Positions 23,737 through 46,315 of a DNA stretch of 64,000 nucleotides are shown here, piece by piece; within the stretch, counting starts at the first letter, position 1; every line of letters begins with the position of its first letter. This DNA comes from Bradyrhizobium ontarionense (GTDB taxonomy: Bacteria > Pseudomonadota > Alphaproteobacteria > Rhizobiales > Xanthobacteraceae). Location: assembly GCF_021088345.1 (NCBI RefSeq), contig NZ_CP088156.1, positions 3,968,001-4,032,000 of the forward strand. The letters run 5' to 3'. Made by a program: the position numbers and the translations under genes. The notes under the pieces were generated by a model. It saw nothing but the letters and a program-made list of their open reading frames with translations, made no database searches and had not been told where the DNA came from.

Positions 23737-26700
23737 ATGAAACAGTTGGAACTGGAACCGTTGTCGGAGGGACAAAAAGGTCTGTGGCTATTTCACAAGC
23801 TGGACCTGAAGGCCGGCGTTTCCCAGACTCTTCCAATCTGTTTCACAATCAAGACCGTTGTCGACATCTCACTCTTCAGGCAGGCATGCGAGTTCGTCCT
23901 TAAACACTCCCCGCTGCTTTCAAGTGTTCTGGTAGAAGAGCATGGCGAACCGTTCCTGCTGCGCTATCCGGACAGTCCGCTCTACTTTGCATGCCAGGAA
24001 ATGCCTGGTGCGTCGCCTGAAGAAGTAGACGCTGCCTTGCGACAGCAGGCCAGGATTGCCTTCGGATTGTCAGAGGATGCGCTAGTACGCTTTCACATCT
24101 ATTCGGTACGACCCGATTTCTACGCCGTTCTCATCGCGATAAACCACATCGTCTTCGACGGCGCCTCGGTGCCCGTATTGCTAGACCGGCTGTTTTCTGC
24201 CTACGATGCCTTGCTGCGTGGACAGCAGCCGGATGCCCCCACGGCCGTGGCCAACTATCGTGATTTCGTGGAGTGGGAGCAGAACTATTTGAAGAGTGCC
24301 AGGAGCCGCATTGCCAGAGACTACTGGATGCGGCAGTTTCCAGGCCCCTTGCCGGCACTGGAACTCGATATAGAGCGCCGCCGTACCGCCGCAGCGCCGC
24401 AGGCAAGCGTCAGCAGCAAGAAAATCCTGTCAGCGTCGGAGTCTGCGCAGGTAAGCGGTTTTTGCGCGCGCCAAAACACCACTCCGGCAGTCTTTTTTCT
24501 TGCGGTCTACCAATTGCTGCTCAAGCAATACAGCCAGCAGCGACACATCATCATCGGCATGCCGGCGCTGGGGCGTCCCAAGCTGTCGTTCCATGACGTG
24601 ATCGGTTACTTCATTGACATGATCCCGATCCAAAGTTTTGTCGATGAGACCCAAACCTTCGATTCCCATTTGATGGAACTGGGCCTCACCGTTGTCGACG
24701 GCATCGACCATGGAGCCTACCCGTTTCCGTTGCTGGTTAACGATCTCAAACTCTCAGGCAAGCAGAATGACTTTCCGATATTCCAGGTTTGGTACGCTTT
24801 CCATAACCGTTCGATGCTGCAGGACGCAGTGGGAAAATACTCCGACAGTCTGAAGAATTACATCGAATTGTCGCAGGATGTCCGTGAGGAAGCCGGCTTC
24901 AAGCTAGAGCTTGAGGTTTTTGAAGGACAGGACAGCCTTGCAATAAGCCTCAAGTACGATCCCCACCGCTTTGCCGCCGAAGACATTGCGGTGATGCTGG
25001 ATCACTACACGGCCCTCCTGCGGGCACTGATAAACGATCCGACAAAGAAAATTGATGAGTACCCCTGCTTATCGGATACCGAGCGTCATCGCTTGCTCGT
25101 GCAATGGAATGCCACGACGCGTCCGTATCCTGGCGACAGTTGCATCCATGAATTGATCGAAGCACAGGCCTCCAGAACGCCAACCGCGATTGCGCTGGTA
25201 TTTGAACAGCAGCGCCTGAGCTATGCAGCGCTCGATCAACGGGCCAACCAGGTCGCCCACTACCTGCACCGCCAGGGCATCAAACCCGATATGCTCGTCG
25301 GGCTGTTCTGCGAACGTTCGCTCGACATGGTCATTGGTCTGCTCGGCATTCTCAAGGCCGGCGCCGCCTACGTCCCGATCGATCCCGCCACTCCCGAACA
25401 ACGCATTCGCTACATGCTCGAGGATGCAGCCGTGACGTGGGTGCTCAGCCAGTCGCAACTCGCGCCTGTCCTGCCGCTCGATGGACGACAGGTGCTGTAC
25501 CTCGACACCGGGACCAGCACCACGACAACCGCCACTTTGGCCGACCAGCCCACCACGCCGCTTGCCCGAACGCTCACCGGACTCGAGCCGACGCATCTGG
25601 CCTACGTCATCTACACCTCGGGCTCCACCGGCCTGCCCAAGGGCGTCATGACCGAGCATCGCGCCCTGGTCAATCGCATCGACTGGATGCAACGGCAATA
25701 CCCGCTCGCCGGCAGCGATGCGGTGCTGCAGAAAACACCGTTCACGTTCGACGTGTCGGTATGGGAATTCATCTGGCCGCTGATGAGCGGCGCCCGGCTG
25801 GTGATCGCCAGACCGCAGGGCCATCTGGATGCCCACTATCTGATAGAGCTGATTCAGCAGCAGGCCGTGACGATCGTGCACTTCGTCCCGTCCATGTTCA
25901 GTCTCATGCTGCAACAGGACGGCTGGCGCCACTGCACGTCGTTGCGTCACGTGTTCTGCAGCGGCGAAGCTCTACCCAGCGAACTGCCGGCCCGGCACTA
26001 CGCCTTGAACAAGGCGCCTTTGCACAATCTCTATGGTCCCACCGAAGCTGCCATCGATGTGAGCTGCTGGCACTGTCCTGATGAAGGCACGACGCCGGAT
26101 ACGATTCCGATCGGCCGCCCCATCCAGAATACGGCGCTGTACGTGCTCGATGAGAACGGACAACCCGTGCCCCGCGGGGTCAAGGGCGAGTTGCACATCG
26201 GCGGTGTCGGGCTGGCGCGCGGGTACTGGCGCAATGCGGAGCTGACGGCGGCGAAGTTCATTCGCAACCCTTTCAGCGATCAGGCGGGGTCGCGGCTGTA
26301 CAGGACGGGCGATTATGCGCGCTGGCGCGCCGACGGCGTGCTCGAGTACGTCGGCCGCATGGACGATCAGATCAAGTTACGCGGTTTCCGCGTGGAGCTC
26401 GGCGAAATAGAAAGCCATCTGGCGCGGCATCCGTGGGTGCAGGCCTGCGCGGTGCGAGTCCATGAGCGTGGGGGTGAACAACAACTCGTGGCGTACGTGC
26501 TGCTCACGCGCATCAGCAGTGCCGCGGAATATCACGCGGAATTGCGGCAGCATTTGCGCCGCTTCCTGCCCGACTATATGGTTCCCGCTGCTTTTGTCGT
26601 GCTGGAACGTCTACCGATGACGCCGAGCGGGAAGGTGGACCGCAAGGCGTTGCCGCCACCGGATGCCGCGGCCTACGTAAAAGACACCTACGTGGCGCCG

Positions 26701-45667: not shown

Positions 45668-46315
45668 CTAGACGAGCTTCCGGTATAGCACCGTCGATAT
45701 GCTGGCAATTGAGGCCGTGAACGTCTTCGCCAGCTCAGGGCCGGCATTGGCCAGAACGGTCCCCAGCGGATCATCGATCTTTTGCAGGTCTCCCAGTGAC
45801 TTCAGCGGGAATTGCAAGGTTACGACCGGGCCCTTCCCGCCTCCGATCGTACTGGCGTAAACATACACCTCATGTTTATGCAGCCCGCCCAGCTTGCCAA
45901 GCAGATCCAGATCAGTGCTCAAGACACCATAGGTCGAAAGTTTCAGATTGATGTTGTACAGGAAGGCCGGGGCTGCGGCAGGCTCTTTGGCGTGAACCTT
46001 ACTTGCTCCCGGTTTGAAGGTATGGAGGCTGGTTGTCACCGAACCGACAAGTTCGTGAAGATCCAGCTTCGCTGTTTCTCCTGTCTGAAGCGGGTGTTTG
46101 AAAGAGTCGAGCGCTGCGGCGCTATCGAAAGGAAAGATCCATAATACTTCCGGGCCACCAGCGACACTTCCATACACGCTACTCTCGCCGTTAAATCGAC
46201 TGTGTATTTCTTCGAGATTCAGAAGATCTGTCCCGCAGGGTGCACCTTTCGGGGTAAGAATGAAATGGGTAATCAGCTGCCATTTCCGTCCCAGGATTGT
46301 TGCTGTCTTGGCCAA
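45668..46315 (-). CDS. Conserved-looking hypothetical protein with two similar halves
   Basis: The protein has 215 residues from a TTG start with a strong GGAGGG ribosome site 6 bases upstream. Two halves share a layout: a beta-strand, a VYGS or VYAS block, then a strand with FPF/FPL, SxxxLxxxxxPL and a helix (about 45-85 and about 145-195). This suggests a duplicated ferredoxin-like (dimeric alpha/beta barrel) fold. No signal peptide is visible. It lies 204 bases upstream of FAAL-ACP in the same direction, at the edge of the cluster. Function unknown; a cyclase- or monooxygenase-type small barrel is one option. Confidence 0.65.
   Translation of the reverse strand: MAKTATILGRKWQLITHFILTPKGAPCGTDLLNLEEIHSRFNGESSVYGSVAGGPEVLWIFPFDSAAALDSFKHPLQTGETAKLDLHELVGSVTTSLHTFKPGASKVHAKEPAAAPAFLYNINLKLSTYGVLSTDLDLLGKLGGLHKHEVYVYASTIGGGKGPVVTLQFPLKSLGDLQKIDDPLGTVLANAGPELAKTFTASIASISTVLYRKLV

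Follow-up and report, generated by a model that had tools for sequence, protein, structure and literature searches.

What does the nonribosomal peptide synthetase (NRPS) cluster in a 64,000-nucleotide stretch of the Bradyrhizobium ontarionense genome (contig NZ_CP088156.1, positions 3,968,001 to 4,032,000; hereafter the window) produce, and can it still produce it? A preliminary description had read the cluster as an imported pathway to a lipid-capped tetrapeptide aldehyde. Our best explanation, to which we give a probability of about 0.55, is an imported lipopeptide NRPS cluster that is probably defunct here and that ends in amide release by a TAD-type domain. TAD, a name taken from PDB titles, is in our reading a terminal amidation domain. 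Where the earlier reading had an active pathway to an aldehyde, ours has a lipopeptide cluster that ends in a TAD, is broken and was apparently imported. The part that we understand least is its carrier cassette with a radical SAM enzyme and two FGE-like proteins. What had been observed before was partly confirmed, and what had been concluded from it is partly supported.

The terminal domain of the second synthetase, NRPS2, belongs with the carmabin-pathway TAD (PDB 9e4s, 9e4u, 9e4x, 9e50, 9e56) and with the 'amidotransferase' domains of VatR and HcaD. It matches the carmabin type in sequence and fold over its whole length, a placement resting on the families among the structure matches listed, and is the most divergent of the domains aligned. 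Its Cys1779 is invariant in all 119 other aligned members. Counted along the alignment with the structure numbering, this residue corresponds to Cys2238, which formed a CoA disulfide in 9e56. The classical NRPS thioester reductase (PF07993, NAD_binding_4) takes the same C-terminal place instead of a thioesterase, but PF07993 finds no match in P0002 at 1e-3, nor in the isolated domain at E up to 10.

Because the terminal domain groups with the carmabin TAD and the VatR and HcaD domains, the aldehyde is not our first choice. Judged from its sequence, the last step looks more like that of a peptide-amide maker than of an aldehyde maker. Alternatively, the domain could be an acyl-ACP-reductase-like thioester reductase, releasing a peptide aldehyde through an enzyme family other than PF07993. 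The cyanobacterial acyl-ACP reductase (AAR, PDB 6jzq and 6jzu; ACP, acyl carrier protein) is a stand-alone enzyme. It shares NAD(P)H binding and, over about 308 residues, the fold of the window domain, but the two are only 17-18% identical and the NCBIfam cut-off for AAR is far from reached (TIGR04058, 22.5 bits against 449.7). We consider aldehyde release unlikely.

Amide release of this kind is linked, in excerpts of PMC10949194, with marine cyanobacterial peptides. The host here is not a cyanobacterium, and the window cluster is known from its genes alone. Among 60 related genomes the domain has a good match in its own genome only, plus a 24% match in G036 (E 5.8e-4); a single-sequence scan of the genome contigs found no relative. 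TAD-type domains also occur in ketosynthase-containing proteins, seven among the 120 listed (P0031, P0032, P0068, P0090, P0103, P0106, P0121); P0031 and P0032 have it C-terminally. In the rhizobium-like genome described here, TAD-type release appears in a divergent version. Annotation based on PF07993 would miss the domain, and a reader might name it an aldehyde reductase.

We doubt that the cluster works, since this assembly shows an interrupted NRPS2. The frame encodes the first part of an adenylation (A) domain and then meets a stop codon, beyond which the same frame continues through SGSTGQPKGV to the end of the protein. Both pieces are 97% identical to P0003, a JGI protein of 2060 residues, and the gap between the matched pieces is 32 codons in the window and 35 in P0003. 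P0003 is full-length and has 10 member sequences; intact copies of NRPS2 therefore exist. The A-T-C-A-T-reductase protein described earlier is thus present in its domains, but not as one intact gene, and its end domain is not a standard reductase. We take NRPS2 to be broken in this strain, with one assembly as the sole witness, and the cluster has probably lost its function here.

The cluster spans 23737-45463 (Table 1). NRPS1, NRPS2, the radical SAM gene, FGE-like 1, the free carrier, FGE-like 2, the acyl-CoA-dehydrogenase-like (ACAD-like) gene and the ligase follow each other on the plus strand, and a fatty acyl-AMP ligase fused to a carrier (FAAL-ACP) comes last, on the minus strand. As proposed before, NRPS1 is a C-A-T-C-A-T-C protein with three condensation (C), two AMP-binding and two carrier (T) domains, and the ligases, free carrier, dehydrogenase-type protein, radical SAM and FGE-like proteins were all located by family profiles.

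Table 1. Features of the cluster, in window coordinates.
Feature	Position	Strand	Basis
NRPS1, C-A-T-C-A-T-C, 2577 aa, opens directly with a C domain	23737..31470	+	3 PF00668, 2 PF00501, 2 PF00550
Repeat copy 1 (1636 bp), contains A1, serine-type code DVWHFSLIDK	25105..26740	+	self-comparison; code read by hand
Repeat copy 2 (1636 bp), contains A2, code DVWHFSLIEK	28297..29932	+	self-comparison; code read by hand
NRPS2 N-terminal piece, start of A3 up to the in-frame stop	31487..31996	+	PF00501 profile positions 1-100; 97% identity to P0003 residues 1-169
In-frame stop codon within A3, immediately ahead of the SGSTGQPKG P-loop	31994..31996	+	frame reading
NRPS2 C-terminal piece: remaining A3, T, C, A4, T, terminal domain	32090..37660	+	97% identity to P0003 residues 205-2060
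TAD-like end domain with an NAD(H) fold resembling AAR; Pfam cut-offs not reached	36407..37660	+	sequence and PDB comparison
Radical SAM protein; 7 cysteines invariant across 26 aligned relatives	37694..38683	+	family profiles, alignment
FGE-like protein 1 (PF03781), without the FGE cysteine pair	38703..39602	+	Pfam, alignments
Free acyl carrier protein, DSGLLNS motif	39623..39883	+	NF052616 at 7.9e-8, under cut-off
FGE-like protein 2 (PF03781), without the FGE cysteine pair	39873..40658	+	Pfam, alignments
ACAD-like protein; neither usual catalytic-base position is Glu	40655..41872	+	family profiles, alignment
AMP-forming acyl ligase	41869..43452	+	family profiles
FAAL-ACP: protein similar to fatty acyl-AMP ligases with a fused carrier domain	43475..45463	-	best matches are fatty acyl-AMP ligases, under cut-offs

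The cluster has the arrangement of a FAAL-started lipopeptide: the FAAL is joined to a carrier, and the neighbouring NRPS has a C domain first. The FAAL is recognised here by best matches that do not attain the NCBIfam cut-offs. The first C domain may be of the starter type; in a PDB search it matched C domains of several NRPSs, with McyB, Txo1 and tyrocidine synthetase 3 on top. A1 and A2 lie inside two gapless copies of a direct repeat that are 99.1% identical (15 mismatches), the result of a recent duplication or conversion. We read the A-domain codes by hand from the translations with alignment anchors. A1 fits the serine code that we, like the preliminary description, take as the reference, and A2 differs from A1 at one place (E for D). 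At the sequence level this supports two near-identical serine-type A domains, as had been suggested. To A3 (DVVNFALVFK) and A4 (DAWDLGTIGK) we give no substrate.

In its intact form the assembly line would begin with the activation of a fatty acid by FAAL-ACP. This acid would be handed by the first C domain to Ser (A1) and then Ser (A2), and NRPS2 would append two further residues via A3 and A4. The TAD-type domain would draw the chain from the last carrier onto the invariant cysteine for NAD(H)-dependent release; the product would most likely end in a primary amide at its C-terminus. Together, the ligase, the free ACP, the ACAD-like protein, the radical SAM protein and both FGE-like proteins would make or alter a single unit bound to the free carrier, which the ligase presumably loads. 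In this genome the assembly line should stall after Ser-Ser, because A3 is cut by the in-frame stop. Of this picture, the gene content, the stop, the intact relative, the relationship to TADs, the conserved cysteine and the linkage of the radical SAM and FGE-like genes are observed, whereas the import, all catalytic steps and the product are inferred. The evidence speaks neither for nor against the protease-inhibitor or signal role suggested earlier.

The Pfam scan of the 10 cluster proteins found no transporter or thioesterase family, in agreement with the earlier account. The MbtH gene reported as missing has indeed no match in the window, but five copies lie elsewhere in the genome, and we reject its absence as a bar to function.

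The ACAD-like protein was also considered as an L-prolyl-PCP dehydrogenase. We rejected this role, since the curated cut-offs are not reached and the catalytic Glu is missing. Its best matches, PigA (215.6 of 500 bits) and RedW (182.4 of 650 bits), stay far under their cut-offs. The Glu residues compared are those that we take to be the catalytic bases of 5lnx and 4irn. The protein has Ser opposite the Glu of YEGT in 5lnx, where 4irn also has Ser, and Gly opposite the Glu of 4irn.

The unit on the free carrier could also be the N-terminal cap itself, replacing the FAAL fatty acid. The ligase, ACAD-like, radical SAM and FGE-like proteins would then build a special acyl starter for the first C domain. 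Ligase-carrier-dehydrogenase sets produce modified starters in other systems, and the ligase, ACP and ACAD-type genes are lined up on one strand. However, FAAL-ACP adjoins the set, and neither of the base positions compared is Glu in the ACAD-like protein. Furthermore, in actinobacteria the related radical SAM and FGE-like genes lie near glutamate-mutase and mostly pyridoxal-phosphate (PLP) decarboxylase genes, pointing to amino-acid rather than fatty-acid chemistry. We find a special starter doubtful.

It is more improbable still that NRPS2 only seems interrupted, through a mistake in assembly or sequencing, and that the cluster is active here: the remaining listed cluster genes are open frames and the stop is the single defect seen, but the stretch differs from that of P0003 by three codons in frame, unlike a typical one-base read error, and the genome is a single 8.4-Mb contig with a completeness score of 100%. 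Of the 51 condensation-domain matches in this genome, four fall within the cluster.

That the FAAL-started, TAD-terminated cluster was imported is supported by its composition and by the absence of its radical SAM protein from the other genomes of the genus and of the phylum sample. Within the window, to which the GC3 comparison is confined, 10 cluster frames have a GC content of 0.50-0.59 and a GC3 of 0.56-0.71, while eight flanking frames (7958-22028 and 47461-59038) have 0.60-0.66 and 0.71-0.89. By frame and by profile the cluster is less GC-rich, as stated before. The adjoining frame 45668-46315, to which no family is given, is GC-poor too (0.54). The radical SAM protein was found in its own genome only, both among 265 genomes of the genus (E 1e-15) and among 398 of the phylum sample (E 1e-25). 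Its nearest database relatives are one JGI protein at 96% identity and others at 45-46%, one of them in a Clostridia metagenome-assembled genome (MAG). For FGE-like protein 1 (FGE1) relatives at 96%, 83% and 81% identity were found. Composition and distribution thus point to a horizontally acquired lipopeptide-type NRPS cluster, as the preliminary description had proposed.

The NRPS part varies a known type; the cassette may be more than that. We tentatively propose that the radical SAM enzyme and the two FGE-like proteins beside it constitute a single, so far undescribed set of enzymes acting on a carrier-bound amino or acyl unit, and that here the set provides a lipopeptide released by a TAD with a building block of a new type. 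Our searches of open-licence literature turned up no description of such a cassette. The linked genes are a concrete, testable lead to carrier-bound chemistry.

To follow the linkage, the alignment of 26 radical SAM sequences was searched against genome contigs, which gave 56 loci with flanks of at most 10 kb, several of them cut short by the end of the contig. Neighbouring genes were taken from stop-to-stop frames rather than from gene calls, and some of these frames may be wrong, above all in high-GC loci. Paenibacillaceae, which we take to include Saccharibacillus and Gorillibacterium, account for 41 loci. In these no FGE-like pair was found, the nearest thing being a single 68-bit FGE1-like match in L037. 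They lie among L015-L067, and L026, the one read, has no biosynthetic-looking neighbours.

Both FGE-like genes accompany the radical SAM gene in eight of the 15 other loci (L012, L025, L046, L049, L054, L056, L058, L059). A genome-wide look at the records of nine of the 15 loci found FGE1 in seven; it is absent in the records of L013 and L014. In L055, L057 and L060 the coordinates of FGE1 lie about 1, 4 and 1 kb beyond the locus, with the contig unconfirmed for L057 and L060; for L055 the homologue P0247 is given on a contig of the same size, 743901. In L063 FGE1 sits on another contig. The longest contigs with FGE1 and radical SAM matches are identical in size in six cases, two being the contigs of L012 and L055.

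The set recurs in four phyla with differing partners: an NRPS in the window and in a Crocinitomix MAG, B12-radical SAM and KAS III in a Clostridia MAG, and glutamate mutase and decarboxylase in actinobacteria. L012 and L025 contain PaaK-like ligase, HemN-like and B12 radical SAM, and KAS III genes, as does L014 without FGE. In L025 an NRPS lies upstream of the cassette. Homologues of the free carrier, which in the window falls below both the Pfam and the NCBIfam cut-offs, adjoin FGE1 in L012 and L025. The Clostridia context weakly hints that the FGE-like proteins need no oxygen, but a gene for a PhyH-type oxygenase lies in L025.

Eight actinobacterial loci (L046, L049, L054-L058, L060) have glutamate mutase E and a ligase beside the radical SAM gene, and all but L058 have a PLP decarboxylase within the stretch read. 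L054 additionally has a dapdiamide-synthase-like ATP-grasp gene. We know of no product for these loci. By enzyme type they resemble the vicenistatin-type pathway for a carrier-bound amino acid (VinN/VinO/VinL with glutamate mutase), as far as it is described in excerpts of PMC11284099; the Pfam scan of the window cluster proteins, however, yielded neither a mutase nor a decarboxylase.

Both FGE-like proteins belong to the FGE/PvdO/EgtB superfamily: PF03781 is above cut-off and they match FGE, PvdO and EgtB structures in sequence. Every listed NCBIfam family stays below its cut-off, however. FGE binds copper with a cysteine pair. This pair (GGSYLCHDSYC in 6muj) is absent from both proteins, FGE1 reading GGHFADALTN and FGE2 GGAFSLNDITN there. 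Other cysteines of FGE1 are conserved throughout the nine aligned sequences; they lie in the motifs AYCNW and EWC and at the K/R-C-x-V/I-x-GFR end.

The flanks had been called decayed, which is only partly right: next to an IS3-like remnant, open frames with good Pfam matches encode an S26 peptidase, molybdopterin dehydrogenases, an amine oxidase and an M1 aminopeptidase. The left flank matches 25 plasmid records, 15 of them from Bradyrhizobium, and the 10 records listed all match at 9.15-9.70 kb. There, positions 9159-9696 share 80-86% identity with plasmid DNA of Bradyrhizobium, and four of the 10 records place an IS3 family transposase at this site. Just upstream of the cluster (17751-22028) are the M1-family aminopeptidase (860 aa) and the flavin amine oxidase. 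Of 116 other genomes sampled from the genus, 21 have M1 peptidases of 39-41% identity, which makes no case for or against the aminopeptidase as a self-resistance gene. On the right, 51000-57000 has matches over 2 kb (68-71%) in eight of 59 other genus genomes, so this flank is common to some relatives. Near the right end of the cluster lies the S26 signal peptidase gene (47461-48051), TraF-type by our reading and possibly a trace of a conjugative element.
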